A model generated the notes under the pieces. The model searched no databases, was not told the DNA's origin, and was given only the letters and a program-made list of their open reading frames with translations. Made by a program: the position numbers and the translations under genes. A stretch of 64,000 nt of DNA from contig NZ_SADE01000002.1 in assembly GCF_004005845.1 (NCBI RefSeq), positions 248,421-312,420 of the forward strand, written 5' to 3'. Of this stretch, positions 3,427-27,601 are shown piece by piece (the first letter of the stretch is position 1; each line of letters begins with the position of its first letter). Origin of the DNA: Hwanghaeella grinnelliae. GTDB lineage: Bacteria > Pseudomonadota > Alphaproteobacteria > UBA8366 > Aestuariispiraceae.

Positions 3427-4504
3427 GGCGCGAAACGGTTCGTTCGAATTCGAATGCGTGCCGCCCTGCGGGATAGATATCCTGCGGCGGCGCAGCCGCG
3501 GCCATCACGATATTGACCTTGTGCTCATACAACGCGTCGATCAGCGTCATGAAGCGCTTAGCCTCGTTGCGTTTGGATTCGTCCAGTTTCGGCACCCCGT
3601 TCAGCACCAGGGTGTGATAGCGGCCCGCGACGGCAATGAAATCCTCGGCCCCGCGCGGCTGTTCACACAATTCCTGGAACGTCATCCAGGCGGTGCCGCG
3701 GGCGGCGCGGGAAACCTTGATGGTCCGCCCGCGCAATTCGACCTCGTCCTCCATCACCTGCGCCCCTTCCGTCAAATCATGGAAAGCCTTTTCCAATTCC
3801 TTGGTCGAGGCCGGGCCGAGCGGGGCGTGGTAAATCTTGATGCTTTTCAGGCGGATCAGCCGATAGTCGGTGGGCGAATCCAGGTGCAACACGTCCAACT
3901 TGCTCTTCAAAAGATCGATGAAGGGCAGGAAATTCGCGCGCTGCAGACCGTCTTTGTAAAGATCGTCCGGCGGCCAATTGCTGGTCGCCACCACAACGAC
4001 CCCGTCTTGGAACAGGTATTCGAACAAGCGCCCCAGGATCATCGCATCGGCGATATCGGTGACATGGAATTCATCGAAACACAGCAACGTCACCTTTTCC
4101 GCCAATTCGGCGGCGATCTTCGGCAGCGGATCGCTTTCCTTGTTCTTGCGGTTCTTCTGTTCCTGACGCCAGGCATGAACCTTGCCGTGAACCTCGATCA
4201 TGAATTCGTGGAAATGAACGCGGCGCTTGGCCTCCATCTCCACCTCATCGAAGAACAGATCCATCAGCATGCTCTTGCCACGGCCGACGCCGCCGAACAT
4301 GTACAGCCCCTGTGGCGCCTCGGCGCGGCGGCGGGCAAGGCCCAGGCGTTCCTTCCAGCCCGTCTGGCCGGATTTGGACGCATAGCCTTTCAAGGCATGA
4401 TGCAGACTCTGAAGTTTTTCCGCGGCCAGTTCCTGCAACGGATCTTCACGCAGGGTGCCGTCGGCTTTCAGCGCACGGTAACGAAATAAAGGGCCGTCCC
4501 CCAT
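3335..4504 (-). CDS. zapE: ZapE/AFG1-family cell division ATPase
   Basis: This 389-residue AAA-like ATPase has Walker A GGVGRGKS (71-78) and Walker [17 protein letters not shown] (D144, E145). The sensor region [20 protein letters not shown] is also typical of AFG1/ZapE. In enterobacteria ZapE acts at the Z-ring late in division, and mitochondrial AFG1 assists membrane-protein quality control. Length and motif order fit the family. The 3' end is overlapped by the Lrp gene on the other strand. Confidence 0.92.
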
Positions 4505-4536
4505 CGCGGAACACCAACCTTCCTTATGAGTGAGAC

Positions 4537-5208
4537 CTAGAACCGGTAATTCAGGGAAAGGGTCACTTCATTCGACGTATAGTCATCGGATTGGAAACTT
4601 TCACCGCCGGCCAAGGTGCCGGTTTCCACTTCACCCAGATTGATGAAACGATAGCCGAGGTCGATGCCGAAACTGTCGCTTACATACCAGGTGAACCCGG
4701 CCATGATCCCCAGCGCCAGATTGTCGGTGCTGTTTTCCGTCGTCGTGATGGCGCCGGTGAAATTGTTACGCTCGACCTCGGACGTATTTCGCGCCCAGCC
4801 GACCGAAGCCCCCAGATAGGGCACCCAATCGTCCCCGAACTGACGAATTTCCCAGGCCAGATTCACCAGGGCGGTCGTGGTGTTCAGATTGTTCTCATAG
4901 CCGATGGTCGGCGGCCCGTTGTCGCGCGCATCGAAATCGAAGCGGAATCGATAGCCGACCTCGAATTCCGCGCGCAGGGGTACATCGCCGAAAGTATACC
5001 CCAGAACTCCCCCTGCACCGGCAACCAGGTCCTCACCATTGTTGACCTGGAACGCGGTCATGCCGGTGGAGGTAACGTCCTCTACCTCCGACAGGAAAGA
5101 ACCAACGCCTTTCAGGCCGATATAGGCCCGCCCCTGGTCCGCCTGTGCGGATCCGACGGATCCAGCCAGAAACACTGCGGCAGCAAGGGCTGCCAAACGA
5201 CCAATCAT
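4537..5208 (-). CDS. outer-membrane beta-barrel protein (opacity/porin-like)
   Basis: A 223-residue protein with a signal peptide ending near GSAQA, followed by alternating strands rich in Gly and aromatics. It ends in YRF, the typical C-terminal aromatic signature of an outer-membrane barrel. Repeated segments such as [22 protein letters not shown] and GLNYRF-like ends support an eight-stranded OmpA/Opa-type fold. I prefer ATG at 5208 over GTG at 5217, because a GAGGTGG site lies at proper distance and the signal peptide starts there. Function beyond the barrel is unknown. It is separated from zapE by 32 nt, so co-transcription is possible. Confidence 0.8.
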
Positions 5209-5505
5209 ATTCCCCACCTCGACCGAAACATTTCAGCCCAACGGTTATGCCGAATATGGCTGCGCCTGTCGAGGATTCCGGCCCACCCCGTGACAGCGAA
5301 ACACCGAACAGACCTGTCCCCGACCGTAGGCCAAGGGCCGCACAACGCGCGACTGTCACCACGAAAAGCGAAAGGGCCCAGCAATCGGCCGGACCCTTAA
5401 ACTTAACCGCGCCGCTCACACAGCGTGTACCGGCCGCCTTAAACGGCGGACCGCACAGGACCTGCCGCCATTGGATTAGCCGCTATTCAGTCAGCTGCAC
5501 GTCTA

Positions 5506-6042
5506 TCAGCGGGGAGCCAACACCATGATCATCTGACGTCCTTCCATGGAAGGACGCTGTTCGACCTTGGCCTTTTCGTCCATTTCGTCGCGAACACGGT
5601 TCAGGACTTCCATGCCCAGCTCCTGGTGCGCCATTTCACGCCCCCGGAACCGCAAGGTCACCTTCACCTTGTCGCCCTCTTCTATGAACTTGTGCATGGA
5701 ACGCATTTTGACGTCGTAGTCATGCTGATCAATGTTCGGACGGAACTTGATCTCTTTGACCTCGATGACCTTCTGCTTCTTGCGCGCTTCGTTCTTCCGC
5801 TTCTGGGCTTCGTATTTGTATTTGCCGTAGTCGAGGATCTTCGCCACGGGCGGGTCCGCGTTCGGCGAAATTTCAACCAGGTCCAACCCGGCCTCGAAGG
5901 CTAACTTGATCGCCTCCGCGGTCGCGGTGACCCCGACATTCTCTCCCTCAGCGTCAATCAAGCGCACTTCCTGCGCAGTGATGTCGTCGTTTACCCGCGG
6001 CCCGTCTTTTGACGGGGGCGGCGCAAAAAATGGCCGTCGTAT
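5506..6042 (-). CDS. infC: translation initiation factor IF-3, AUA start codon
   Basis: Residues [12 protein letters not shown], the lysine-rich linker [20 protein letters not shown] and the C-terminal domain ending [11 protein letters not shown] identify IF-3. An inner GTG at 5967 would give only 153 residues and cut off the conserved N-terminal segment. Reading on upstream in frame gives [19 protein letters not shown] and then ITAQEV. The frame reaches ATA at 6040-6042, placed 5 nt after AGGAGG, which gives 178 residues, the normal IF-3 length. Rare start codons on infC are known (AUU in Escherichia coli), where IF-3 rejects its own start and so limits its own synthesis. It lies downstream of thrS. 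Confidence 0.95.
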
Positions 6043-23898: not shown

Positions 23899-24798
23899 TC
23901 AGTCGGGATGGACGAGGTTCAGGGTTCGGTCCGACACGCGGATATCCGCGCGGATCCCCCATTCGAACTTCAGGAAATCCTGCTCAATCCCATCCGCAAA
24001 GATCACCCCGCCGTCGTTCATTCGGGATGTGACGGCCATTCTTGTGTCGCCGGCGACCTCGCCGAACGCGAGGTCACAGCCGGTCGCCTTGCTGGGCCAG
24101 GGTTCGCGCGCGAAAAAGATCGCCCGCCGCTCTTCCGGCGAAAAGGCCGCCTGCCGCCGCGTCGCGGTCAGGATAGAGCGCGCCCAGCCGGTCAGGCCTG
24201 TCCCGGTCGAGACGACCACACCGGAGGAAGACTGATCTTCGTCCCTGCCGTCCGCCGTGATCGTGTAGCGGGCGGATTGGTGCGAACGGTGCCCGATGAA
24301 AAGCTCGTTCAGCGCGGTCAGGCTCTGGCCATCGTCCAGCGTCGCCTCGACCATCGCCCGATGCTCGATCGTTACATCTTGCGCAGCAACCCGGCGCAAG
24401 AGGACGGGGAGGCCCTTAACCGGCGTCGCGGTCAGAACCCCTTCCGAGGCTTCTTCGGCCGGCGTGACCCCGACGACCGGTTGGCCGTCGAGGTATTTCG
24501 CCAAATTTGCCACCAGTCCATCCTGCCCAACGGCGATGACGATATCCCGGTCCGCGAAGAGGAACCGGTCGAGGTCGTCACGCGTCACTTGGGCGACGAC
24601 CCAGTCCTCCGGCAGGGCCCGCTTCACCCCGTCCACCGCAGAGGCGAGCCTTTCGCTTCGCTGTTCCAGCTCCGCGAGGGTCTGGCCCCGACGGTTTAGG
24701 AAAAATTCAGCCTGACCACGGGTCGCGTGGATGGCGATCAGTTCCTCCAGTTCCGTCGGCCGCGTAACCAGTACCGCGCGTGGGGTCAGGCTGGTCAT
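23899..24798 (-). CDS. NAD kinase-like protein, co-transcribed with an SPFH protein
   Basis: A 299-residue protein with the ATP-NAD kinase layout but divergent motifs. The usual GGDGT loop is GQDGL here (91-95), and its Asp is kept. LNELFIGHR (163-171) holds the Asn-Glu pair, and STGTGLTGW (197-205) stands for the usual STPTGSTAY. With the key Asp and the NE pair kept, it may phosphorylate NAD or a related nucleotide, or only bind it. Its ATG overlaps the stop of the SPFH gene (ATGA), a sign of translational coupling. A Nudix/NrtR-type regulator is divergent from the pair. Confidence 0.75.
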   Translation of the reverse strand: MTSLTPRAVLVTRPTELEELIAIHATRGQAEFFLNRRGQTLAELEQRSERLASAVDGVKRALPEDWVVAQVTRDDLDRFLFADRDIVIAVGQDGLVANLAKYLDGQPVVGVTPAEEASEGVLTATPVKGLPVLLRRVAAQDVTIEHRAMVEATLDDGQSLTALNELFIGHRSHQSARYTITADGRDEDQSSSGVVVSTGTGLTGWARSILTATRRQAAFSPEERRAIFFAREPWPSKATGCDLAFGEVAGDTRMAVTSRMNDGGVIFADGIEQDFLKFEWGIRADIRVSDRTLNLVHPD

Positions 24799-25838
24799 TG
24801 TACCGCCCTCCCCGTTTGTGCACCCGTTTGCGGCCCCGCACCGAACAGTCCGCCGACTTGGCTCAACAGACCGGACAGCATATCCGGCGTGATCGTCAGG
24901 CTGTCGACGGACTTCACCTTGCCGGCAAATTCCTGGGCGGCCAGGGCGAAGAGAACCGCCGGCGCCACATCGCCGAACACATCCATGCGCGCCTTTTCCG
25001 CCTCCGCCTTCGCCAAATCGACGGTGCGAATGCCGTGGGCTTCCGCGTCGGCACGGATGGTCTGCATCGCCGCTTCCGCTTCCGCATCGATCCGGCGGTT
25101 GGCGGCCTCCGCCTCTACCTTCGACCGGGCGTTCGTCGCCTCACGCTGGATCAGATCCTTTTTCCTGGCCGCCAATTCAATCTGATTGTTCAGCTCGTTC
25201 TCCGCGATGGCGCGTTCCTTTTCTACGGCCTGGGCACGGCGAGCAAAGGAGGCTTCGTCGGCCTGTTGCTGCAAGCTTTCATATGTCGGCGCCTGCAGAG
25301 CACGCGCCAATTCGCTGCTGGGTGCGACGTTTGCCACGTTGACCGTCACGACCTCGAGCCCCATTGCACGGACCGAAGCTTCGGCGGCGAAAGCCTCCGA
25401 CACGACATGCTGCAACGGCGCCGCCCCCGCTTTCAGCAAGTCGCGCACACCCTGTTGCTGCAAATAGGCGTGCGTGTATTGCCGGACGAGGCCGGTCAGG
25501 ACCGCGTTGATTTGGTTGATCGGCTGCGCAACCAACGCGCCGGTTTTCAGGTCAATGGTGAAGTCGACCCGGTTTCCAAGGATCGTAGGATCCGCGACCC
25601 GCCATACCACGGCCCCTTGAACCGTGATTTCCTGAAAATCGGAGGACTGCCCCTTAACCACAAAGGTCATCTGCCTGTCATCCATCGGAATTTCCGTGAT
25701 GGACGACCCGTCGGGCATGAACCAAAAGGCCAAACCTCGACCCACATGGACTTGTTTCCCCTTGCGATAGAGTTGAACGTAGGATGACGCGTCTGCCCGC
25801 AACTGTGACACGACGGGATATCTCTTGATCTCGGCCAT
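24795..25838 (-). CDS. SPFH/band 7 domain protein
   Basis: A 347-residue protein with an SPFH domain over about 30-200 (FVVKGQSSDFQEITVQGAVVWRV, GLEVVTVNVANVAPSSELAR). A long Ala/Glu/Lys-rich coiled coil follows over about 210-300. No N-terminal membrane helix is visible, unlike flotillins and stomatins, so membrane contact must be peripheral or via partners. ATG at 25838 has GAGGAG at 8 nt. The preceding in-frame codon adds three residues. It is first of a two-gene operon with the NAD kinase-like gene. Its promoter overlaps two operator-like palindromes. Its specific role is unknown. Confidence 0.85.
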   Translation of the reverse strand: MAEIKRYPVVSQLRADASSYVQLYRKGKQVHVGRGLAFWFMPDGSSITEIPMDDRQMTFVVKGQSSDFQEITVQGAVVWRVADPTILGNRVDFTIDLKTGALVAQPINQINAVLTGLVRQYTHAYLQQQGVRDLLKAGAAPLQHVVSEAFAAEASVRAMGLEVVTVNVANVAPSSELARALQAPTYESLQQQADEASFARRAQAVEKERAIAENELNNQIELAARKKDLIQREATNARSKVEAEAANRRIDAEAEAAMQTIRADAEAHGIRTVDLAKAEAEKARMDVFGDVAPAVLFALAAQEFAGKVKSVDSLTITPDMLSGLLSQVGGLFGAGPQTGAQTGRAVQ

Positions 25839-25920
25839 GGATCTCACTCCTCGATTGGCTGGTTTCTTGGATATTCGTTTTTACGGAGGCGGGCTGTGCT
25901 TGAGAGCCGTTTCCCTTTCC

Positions 25921-25968
25921 GTTAGTGTTTTAATAACACTAACTAGTAAGTGTCGTCAACACACTAAG
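25921..25968. promoter_or_regulatory. two tandem 23-bp operators, likely NrtR-type boxes
   Basis: GTTAGTGTT-N5-AACACTAAC (25921-25943) is a perfect inverted repeat with 9-bp arms. A second copy, GTAAGTGTC-N5-CACACTAAG (25946-25968), has the same length and spacing with two changes per arm. Their centres are 25 bp apart. The second ends 4 bp before the ATG of the Nudix regulator. On the reverse strand TTGACG (25954-25959)-N18-TATTAA (25930-25935) forms a promoter for the SPFH operon that lies inside both boxes. Binding would block both genes. Confidence 0.75.
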
Positions 25969-25972
25969 AGTC

Positions 25973-26641
25973 ATGACCTATACCTACACCTATCCCCATC
26001 CGGCTGTAACCGCTGATATCGTTGTCTTTTCCGTGGAAGACGACAGGCTGAAAATTCTTCTGATCCGGCGAAAGGAAGACCCGTTCCAGGGACAATGGGC
26101 CCTGCCGGGCGGCTTCGTCGGCATCGACGAAAGCATCGACGACTGCGCGCTGCGGGAGTTGGAAGAAGAGACGGGACTGAGCGGCATCTATCTTGAGCAG
26201 CTCTATACCTTCGGCACGCCTGACCGCGACCCGCGGGAGCGGGTAATCAGCGTCGCCTATTTCGCGCTGACCCCGATGACCGGATTGACCCTGAAACACG
26301 GGTCCGACGCGATGGACGCGCAATGGCACGATATCGACGCACAGCCCGAACTGGCCTTCGATCACGGCGCGATCATCCGCCTGGCAAGGGAACGGCTGAC
26401 GGCGAAGTTGGATTATTCGACGGTGGGCCTGAAATTCATGCCGGCGGAATTTACCCTGTCCGACGTCCAATCGCTCTACGAAACGGTTTCAGGGCAGGCA
26501 CGCGACAAGCGGAATTTTCGGAAATGGATTCTATCGCTTGATATTCTTGAAGAGACCGGGCGAAAGAAATCCGACGGCGCGCATCGCCCGGCCATGCTCT
26601 ATACCCTTAAAACACCGGCTGAAATTCGGATGATTAAATAA
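25973..26641 (+). CDS. Nudix-domain transcriptional regulator, NrtR type
   Basis: A 222-residue protein. An N-terminal Nudix domain of the ADP-ribose pyrophosphatase group has a complete box at 47-69 (G-x5-E-x7-RELEEETGL). A C-terminal winged-helix segment (about 145-222, KFMPAEFTLSDVQSLYETV to RKWILSLDILEETG) is typical of NrtR regulators of NAD metabolism. NrtR proteins sense ADP-ribose or related metabolites. The box is intact, so this one may also hydrolyse its ligand. It is divergent from the SPFH/NAD-kinase-like operon and the shared gap holds two palindromes, so auto- and cross-regulation are likely. Confidence 0.87.
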   Translation: MTYTYTYPHPAVTADIVVFSVEDDRLKILLIRRKEDPFQGQWALPGGFVGIDESIDDCALRELEEETGLSGIYLEQLYTFGTPDRDPRERVISVAYFALTPMTGLTLKHGSDAMDAQWHDIDAQPELAFDHGAIIRLARERLTAKLDYSTVGLKFMPAEFTLSDVQSLYETVSGQARDKRNFRKWILSLDILEETGRKKSDGAHRPAMLYTLKTPAEIRMIK

Positions 26642-26662: not shown

Positions 26663-27208
26663 TCAGTCGCCCGATGCCATTTTGAGCAATTCGGCTTGCG
26701 GCACGAAAGTGTCGCCCAGGCTGAGGTCGGTGACGGAATAGACCATCACGATATCGACCGTCGCGCCATCGCTTGCAAAGGGCAGGAACACTGTTTCCCG
26801 GCGCGCAACCGCGCCAAGTTTGGTCGGCGCGTACTCAACGATATAGACCGGACCGCGCCGTTCGACGACCGACCGGTAATTGCCATCACAGAAATTGCCG
26901 TCGAACCCGGCAAAGGCATCCCGCACCGACCGCCCGGTCGGGTCGTAGCCACGGAACTCAACCTCCCGCGTGCCGACAAGACGGTAACTGAATTCAGGAC
27001 CGGGATAGACCACGTCGACCAACATGATGTCGGGCAGCAATTGAACGATATCGTGTGGTTCTATGGCACGCCGTTCAGGCAAGTCGTCGCCATTGAGGCG
27101 CGAGCGCCACAAAGCGACGAGTTCGGCGATCCGATCGTCGCATTCCGCAAGGAAACTCTCGTCCTCGCAGCGTATGGACTCGGGAATTTCATTGAGATTG
27201 ATCGTCAT
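26663..27208 (-). CDS. PAS-domain protein (PAS_5-like)
   Basis: A 181-residue protein with a single PAS-like domain and no output domain. The signature segments are LWRSRLNGDDLPERRAIEP, DIMLVDVVYPGPEFSYRLVG and a final VDIVMVYSVTDLS strand. This layout matches the alphaproteobacterial PAS_5 family of unknown function. ATG at 27208 starts the family-like sequence. An upstream in-frame start at 27256 would add 16 residues without similarity. It converges with the Nudix gene, with 21 nt between stops. Confidence 0.78.
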   Translation of the reverse strand: MTINLNEIPESIRCEDESFLAECDDRIAELVALWRSRLNGDDLPERRAIEPHDIVQLLPDIMLVDVVYPGPEFSYRLVGTREVEFRGYDPTGRSVRDAFAGFDGNFCDGNYRSVVERRGPVYIVEYAPTKLGAVARRETVFLPFASDGATVDIVMVYSVTDLSLGDTFVPQAELLKMASGD

Positions 27209-27601
27209 CGTTGAGGGCTTCCCGTTTCTTTGCCTGAACGCTATTTCCGCCCGCATTAAAAAACACTTAATGGTCGCTGGGAAGTCCTACCCAACAATTA
27301 AGGCATACCATGATACAGCGGCCTGGCGTGCGGGGATACCTGCGCCGCCCCGACACACGTCCTGGCGTCCACCTTGGCGTCCACCTTGGCGTCCACCCTG
27401 GCGCCCACCCAAGCGGCCAACGGTTTGAAAACACACACGGACCGGATGAGAAGGCAAAGCCCGGCCATTAAGATTGTCGTTTCGAAGACATTGCTGTAGG
27501 GACTTGTGCAAGCGCATCCGTAAAACACCCGGTCAAAAGGGTCGAAAGCGGTTCACACGAGACGGTCTTACCGCAGGCGTTCACACGAGGGTTGAGTATA
27601 C
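27209..27601. other. 393-bp non-coding gap with tandem repeats before rnd
   Basis: No convincing gene. It holds four 12-bp tandem units (27361-27408). It also has two 11-bp direct repeats, GTTCACACGAG, at 27551-27561 and 27579-27589, just before the RNase D gene. The second pair is 28 bp apart start to start, close to three helical turns, and may be a regulator site. Confidence 0.5.
27361..27408. repeat. 12-bp tandem repeat, four copies
   Basis: The units are CCTGGCGTCCAC, CTTGGCGTCCAC, CTTGGCGTCCAC and CCTGGCGCCCAC. Twelve is a multiple of three, so length change would keep frame, but no gene covers it. Confidence 0.9.

Follow-up and report, generated by a model that had tools for sequence, protein, structure and literature searches.

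Tandem 23-bp palindromes between an NrtR-type regulator and an SPFH/NAD-kinase-like operon, very probably NrtR operators

Which protein reads two palindromic boxes that share a divergent gap between a regulator gene and an operon for an SPFH protein and an NAD-kinase-like (NADK-like) protein, and which genes do they switch? The window, the 64-kb stretch of DNA analysed here, has an nrtR-type gene on the right (25973..26641, plus strand, 222 aa), the SPFH/NADK-like operon on the left, and both boxes in the 125-bp gap between them. Judged from the letters of protein and DNA, the boxes are very probably NrtR operators and probably switch both nrtR and the SPFH/NADK-like gene pair. The full reading, which we regard as likely, is that of tandem operators of the adjacent NrtR-type regulator, which would repress the SPFH operon and itself and be released by an ADP-ribose-type ligand.

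Box 1, the SPFH-proximal and better box (25921..25943), reads GTTAGTGTT-TTAAT-AACACTAAC and is the perfect 9-5-9 palindrome described in the first-pass annotation of this DNA. Box 2 (25946..25968; neither box is assigned a strand) is an imperfect copy, GTAAGTGTC-GTCAA-CACACTAAG, at an offset of 25 bp; it carries the two changes per arm that had been noted, with 14 of 18 arm positions identical to box 1, and 6 of its own 9 arm pairs are complementary. Each box holds the string GTGT-N7-ACAC, which occurs in the 64-kb window at 25925 and 25950 only, that is, inside both boxes. The nrtR ATG lies 4 bp past the end of box 2 and 5 bp past its 21-bp core (25947-25967). Palindromy alone was rejected as evidence, because about 3.4 perfect 9-bp inverted repeats with spacers of 0-8 are expected in the window, where 9 are listed, nested ones included. 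Within the 125-bp gap only 0.0007 such repeats with a spacer of 5 would be expected, and among 20000 mononucleotide shuffles of the gap minus box 1, 3 produced a second copy that agrees at 14 or more of 18 positions; the box pair, unlike the lone palindrome, exceeds chance.

The regulator combines a Nudix domain (PF00293, E 4.9e-22) with an NrtR winged helix (PF21906, E 3.1e-23), both above cut-off. Its score of 165.4 bits against NF050029, the NCBIfam equivalog for the ADPR responsive repressor, compares with a curated cut-off of 400, and by this measure the protein is of the same family and not that equivalog. Among solved structures its best match is BtAraR of Bacteroides thetaiotaomicron (E 6.7e-47), followed by SoNrtR of Shewanella oneidensis (3gz5, 3gz6, 3gz8; E 2.1e-36). 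In the BtAraR-DNA crystal complex, residues D178, K179, R180, N181, R183 and K184 lie at a GTGT-N7-ACAC operator, whose GTGT motif is defined by major- and minor-groove contacts (PMC4666351). The recognition helix of the window regulator, RDKRNFRKW (residues 177-185; 26501..26527, plus strand), has the same letters at the same six numbers, where we infer the BtAraR numbering as chain index minus 3. Within the AraR DNA-contact set of K179, R180, N181, K184, K204 and R205, five of six residues are the same, the wing residue Arg205 being kept and Lys204 replaced by His. Several relatives have frames of about 350 aa that match the C-terminal part of the regulator alone, as the solved NadQ does; none of the three matches to the regulator in the window genome is of this kind.

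The likeness to BtAraR thus comprises Nudix plus winged helix, the contact helix DKRNFRK, GTGT-N7-ACAC and tandem sites. The araM operon is described with two tandem 21-bp sites upstream, 3 bp apart in the majority of genomes, and a BtAraR gel shift gave two bands ascribed to one and two dimers, a dimer covering 25 bp (PMC4666351). With 4 bp between the window's 21-bp cores, two dimers should just find room side by side. The question of cooperative binding, which the first-pass annotation had left open, is narrowed by these BtAraR sites with their one- and two-dimer bands. Its suggestion that the dimers would lie near the same face of slightly overwound DNA is wrong: at 10.5 bp per turn, 25 bp make 2.38 turns and leave the dimers about 137 degrees out of phase, and 10 bp per turn gives 2.5 turns, which places the dimers on opposite faces.

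The effector is a separate matter from the operators, and here the two solved relatives differ. BtAraR, a sensor of L-arabinose with a degenerate Nudix box and with Gly89, serves many arabinose operons (PMC4666351); the window regulator has an intact Nudix box (GX5EX7REUXEEXGU; 26111..26179, plus strand), Arg88, and good sites only beside one SPFH/NADK-like operon. SoNrtR contacts ADP-ribose through Arg41 and Arg98, while BtAraR is described with Gly89 and as lacking the nucleotide cleft (PMC4666351). R33 and R88 of the window regulator align with Arg41 and Arg98, and each occurs in all 20 divergent and in 54 of the 55 co-directional regulators at the loci described below (the best 80 of at least 579 relatives plus 5 loci). 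SoNrtR shares the domain order as well and is unlike the window protein in its recognition helix and in the NAD metabolism genes described as NrtR targets. Since the Nudix domain keeps the arginines with which SoNrtR holds ADP-ribose, this compound is our best guess for the effector, and ADP-ribose, an NAD breakdown product, or a close relative would most likely release the repressor. The intact Nudix box means that the repressor may also hydrolyse its own inducer. The Nudix motif is described as impaired in NrtR regulators of NAD metabolism, and another family member, NdnR, is said there to respond to NAD (PMC4666351); the motif of the window regulator is intact.

The alternative that fares best keeps the same operators and replaces ADP-ribose by a sugar or another Nudix-type ligand, a reading that we hold to be improbable. 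It draws on the regulator's lying nearer to AraR than to SoNrtR, as the two E values above indicate. The arabinose-binding residues R34, R86 and H131 of BtAraR also have counterparts in R33, R85 and H131. Against this, position 88 is Arg, as in SoNrtR Arg98, in place of the Gly89 that goes with the missing cleft in BtAraR (PMC4666351), and the predicted target pair is NAD-kinase-like plus SPFH, not sugar catabolic. The clustering with arabinose genes seen for AraR does not recur, the neighbours in the immediate flanks scanned being the SPFH, NADK-like and PAS_5 genes. The PAS_5 domain protein is encoded at 26663-27256 on the minus strand, convergent to nrtR. A defence system was considered and rejected, the sole PADLOC match being PDC-S07 with 28.8 bits over residues 17-73 of the Nudix part.

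A third characterised relative, MsNrtR of Mycobacterium smegmatis, is an autorepressor with a 23-bp 8-7-8 palindrome, GTTTTCGA-N7-TCGAAAAC, in the nrtR-nadABC intergenic region, the same frame as that of the window boxes (PMC6800001). It is unlike the window in having one box, other letters and nadABC as target, and is reported to have an altered Nudix motif and no detected ADP-ribose hydrolysis (PMC6800001). NrtR motifs are reported to carry taxon-specific substitutions (PMC5343134).

The putative target operon consists of an SPFH/Band 7 gene (PF01145; 24795..25847, minus strand), with a GTG start at 25847 and an ATG at 25838 that fits the family start better, and the gene for the 299-aa NADK-like protein (23899..24798, minus strand), which overlaps it by 4 bp. 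The SPFH protein gave no sequence match among solved structures. The NADK-like protein had no match in Pfam, NAD_kinase included, and its NCBIfam NAD-kinase matches were far below cut-off. Its profile came closest to human mitochondrial NADK2 (7r4j-7r4m, 7n29; E 5.1e-15) among solved structures, and its AF2 model (pLDDT 92) gave NADK2 as the best PDB match (E 1.6e-20, TM 0.75 by query length), making NADK2 the closest solved relative by profile and by fold. On this model-based comparison the protein has a predicted NAD kinase fold, and its NAD kinase activity is putative. The canonical motifs of NAD kinases are GGDG and TPTGSTAY; the NADK-like family, unlike these enzymes, has GQDGLxAN for the former and TGTGxTGW for the latter. 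GQDG stands at the GGDG place in 82 of 84 proteins, and the aspartate D93 and the NE motif, N164-E165, are kept in 84 of 84, a conservation biased by the selection of the loci, drawn from the best 80 of at least 579 relatives and partly chosen by GQDGLVAN. The motifs GQDGLxAN and HQSxRY mark this NADK2-like family, of which at least 579 relatives were confirmed. Elsewhere the window genome has one NAD_kinase match above cut-off and a second below it, so the NADK-like protein would be an additional enzyme. A literature search, with subscription papers mostly outside its scope, found no paper linking NrtR with SPFH, SPFH with both Nudix and NAD kinase, or band 7 with NAD kinase and an operon; the papers listed by a looser search do not, judged by title and opening of the abstract, deal with this cassette.

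A putative promoter of the SPFH operon would run through both boxes. The first-pass annotation had proposed TTGACG-N18-TATTAA inside them, and the strings are present on the minus strand as written: the -35-like TTGACG at 25954..25959 inside box 2 and the -10-like TATTAA at 25930..25935 inside box 1, with an 18-nt spacer. As a promoter the proposal gained no confirmation from the scan, which found no sigma-70-type site passing its criteria in 25700-26100; TATTAA is weak, matching TATAAT at 4 of 6 positions, and any promoter function of the two hexamers is predicted from their letters. A regulator dimer on box 1 would cover the -10 region of this promoter and one on box 2 the -35 region together with the start of nrtR, and the regulator would repress the SPFH/NADK-like operon and, more weakly, itself.

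The nrtR-SPFH-NADK2-like cassette is patchy in the class. Close relatives of both regulator and NADK-like protein were found in 2 of 43 genomes of the window's order, and the other same-genus genome searched (G004) had no close relative of either. A class sample of 385 genomes yielded a close (>50% identical) NADK-like relative in 4 and, in 8, a regulator match with E no higher than 1e-20; both counts include the window genome. The second genome of the order, the MAG contig G035 (also found as L080), has the same divergent layout, a regulator 69% identical, and two boxes exactly 25 bp apart, each with GTGT-N7-ACAC; in its 8-kb locus this string occurs at 3798 and 3823 only. Between the window and G035 the box region is identical at 38 of 48 positions, compared with 32 of 82 columns of the leader, gaps counted as differences. 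The SPFH-side box is the better one in both, with 0 mismatches against 1 in the window and 1 against 2 in G035. The -35-like hexamer of G035 is TTGACA and the -10-like one CATTGT. Close conservation of the boxes is that of one ortholog, G035. Together with the helix match, the G035 boxes support the initial proposal that the regulator next door has two operators in tandem within the divergent promoter, where they likely control the SPFH operon.

Two further genomes have the box beside a regulator. G164, from another family of the class, was found by regulator protein similarity alone (E 9.9e-63) and has no SPFH or NADK-like match among frames of at least 120 aa in 11 kb; its helix is LDKRNFRSW, K184 being Ser, and its single such box, CATAGTGTTAATATAACACTAAG, ends 5 bp before the regulator ATG. 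G025, of the window's order, has a related regulator readable as far as a run of N just after an intact Nudix core, with TTCGTGTCATAAATACACGAT standing 36 bp before the regulator ATG; its 3.2 kb hold two GTGT-N7-ACAC strings, the second one far upstream. With boxes beside the regulators in G164 and G025, the box follows the regulator rather than the SPFH operon. At locus L169 of G164 (4278-5878), the gene that directly follows this NrtR, whose Nudix box is intact, is a Q_salvage (queuosine salvage) gene, which may be a new NrtR target.

For other bacteria, a profile search of genome contigs with the NADK-like alignment returned at least 579 relatives, the best 80 of which were kept; with four further loci and the window, 85 loci were examined. 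An NrtR-type neighbour is present in 76 of these 85 and absent from 9: in L103, L125, L132, L134, L142 and L150 the SPFH gene is missing or has hardly any sequence, or none, upstream of it, and L128, L129 and L152 offer at least 2.7 kb in which no such neighbour is found. Relative to the SPFH gene, 20 regulators are divergent and 55 co-directional in the same sample, a count that leaves out L080 as a duplicate of L076. The taxa with the cassette include Alphaproteobacteria, Myxococcota, Planctomycetota, Acidobacteriota and Actinomycetota.

The operators of these loci were sought by their letters, since palindromes picked for their symmetry, whatever their letters, mostly did not rise above the background of those loci. 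A de novo motif search covered 71 loci, namely 53 of the 55 co-directional (L091 and L095 out) and 18 divergent, with two shuffles per group and with the window and G035 treated apart. Among these relatives, from the best 80 of at least 579, all 16 divergent loci from Actinomycetota have TTATCGT-N7-ACGATAA, against at most 3 after shuffling, and TATATGC-N5-GCATATA was found in 11 of the 13 loci of a co-directional group made up mainly of Myxococcota and Planctomycetota, again against at most 3; the motifs of the other co-directional groups were weaker (7/14, 5/14 and 4/12, with shuffles reaching 2 at most), and for the Roseomonas/Labrys pair no motif did better than the shuffles. The same 16 actinobacterial cassettes all have the helix D[PS]RNFHR. 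Two sites are present in 15 of the 16, spaced 34 bp in 11, 33 bp in 2, 36 bp in 1 and 27 bp in 1, again within the best 80 of at least 579, and of the 45 matches in 147 kb of these loci, 31 are the sites of these regions. Co-directional pairs 15 or 22 bp apart occur in 10/13, 13/14, 12/14 and 6/12 loci of the four groups from the same best 80, counted with a lenient cut of 6/18 mismatches and half-sites chosen from the same loci, and in none of 50 shuffles per group. Upstream of nrtR in L123, L133 and L138 the layout is unusual: palindromes 15 bp apart overlap and have their central arm in common. The centre spacings, 25 bp in the window and G035, 33-36 or 27 bp in Actinomycetota and 15 or 22 bp at co-directional loci, differ in helical phase, and same-face cooperativity as a conserved feature was rejected for this reason. 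A new finding is that several phyla share the nrtR-SPFH-NADK2-like cassette, with operators that are again paired but differ in letters and in spacing.

A second alternative, to which we give a slightly smaller chance still than to a sugar inducer, divides the boxes, with box 1 for the SPFH operon and box 2 for nrtR autoregulation only, or has the regulator activate in one direction. The SPFH-side site is the better one in 12 of the 15 two-site actinobacterial cassettes (equal in 2, worse in 1), and G164 has a single such box beside nrtR, both of which would fit separate roles; in the window, however, the boxes cover the hexamers of one putative promoter, and 25 bp leave little room for separate promoters. 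Activation is disfavoured by the description of several characterised NrtR regulators as repressors (PMC4666351, PMC6800001). That the palindromes serve another DNA-binding protein or arose by chance is very improbable: a perfect 9-bp inverted repeat is indeed expected by chance in 64 kb, but the second copy, the 25-bp conservation in G035, the crystal-based helix match and the G164 box all speak against it. Several points count against the preferred reading of tandem repressor operators: the weak putative -10 is poorly kept in G035, Lys204 is His, the nearest solved structure is AraR, whose inducer is L-arabinose, and the boxes are closely conserved in a single ortholog, G004 having no close relative of the regulator.

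The range of the regulator looks local, confined to nrtR and the SPFH/NADK-like operon. In the 5.32-Mb genome, TTAGTGT-N7-ACACTAA has 1, 1, 0 and 16 sites at 0, 1, 2 and 3 mismatches, against composition expectations of 0.004, 0.18, 4.3 and 61, and the pattern read backwards gave 82 sites with up to 3 mismatches against 18 for the real one, so the 3-mismatch sites look like chance. No further site with up to 2 mismatches exists in this genome beyond the two boxes, and on this ground a wider regulon was rejected. PF21906 has a single match in the same genome, which is 97.85% complete. The first-pass annotation had offered the 9-5-9 pattern as a motif for a wider regulon, an expectation left unsupported: the search gave no second locus and no other occurrence near NAD-related genes, one half of what that annotation had named as refuting its proposal. 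We read this absence as a local regulon, rather than as evidence against the operators. The actinobacterial operator pattern, searched in the window genome, gave 19 three-mismatch sites against 2 for its backwards control and none better than 3 mismatches, an excess that the control leaves unaccounted for. NadA (PF02445) has no match in the window genome at 97.85% completeness, while 12 of 14 control genomes have one.

Trees of the three proteins suggest that the window lineage exchanged its regulator and kept the target genes. The NADK-like and SPFH trees group the window and G035 with 11 co-directional loci of Alphaproteobacteria, a set of 13 rows (SH-aLRT 98 and 97); in the regulator tree they lie outside the 55-row co-directional set (SH-aLRT 99). 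AU tests were run on the regulator and NADK-like trees, with groups named after the trees were seen. Holding the window and G035 regulators with those 11 co-directional ones was rejected (p 0.019), as was holding the NADK-like proteins with the actinobacterial divergent ones (p 0.026). A constraint joining the two regulators to the complete set of 55 co-directional ones was not rejected (p 0.53), so the window regulator could be the sister of the whole co-directional clade. By alignment columns, the catalytic motif R-E-x-x-EE is kept whole by 18 of the 20 divergent regulators, all but L141 and L153, and by 0 of 55 co-directional ones among the best 80 of at least 579 relatives, a link between Nudix box and orientation that, with few independent lineages, is a correlation by clade.

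As tandem NrtR/AraR-type operators the sites are ordinary in kind; what is unusual is their putative target, their local range, and a regulator whose Nudix box is intact. One speculative picture, which may well prove wrong, is a widespread and undescribed NADP-supply module, in which an NADK2-like enzyme and an SPFH scaffold would stand under an NAD-breakdown signal, the divergent repressor would destroy its own inducer and so give a self-limiting pulse, the co-directional relatives would have lost catalysis, and the window lineage would have swapped its regulator type while keeping paired operators. The pairing of DKRNF with GTGT and of D[PS]RNFHR with TCGT in natural relatives makes helix-operator specificity directly testable. 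The locus would tie an ADP-ribose-type sensor to an uncharacterised NADK2-like/SPFH gene pair of several phyla, and it raises the question of why divergent regulators mostly keep an apparently active Nudix box and the co-directional ones examined do not.
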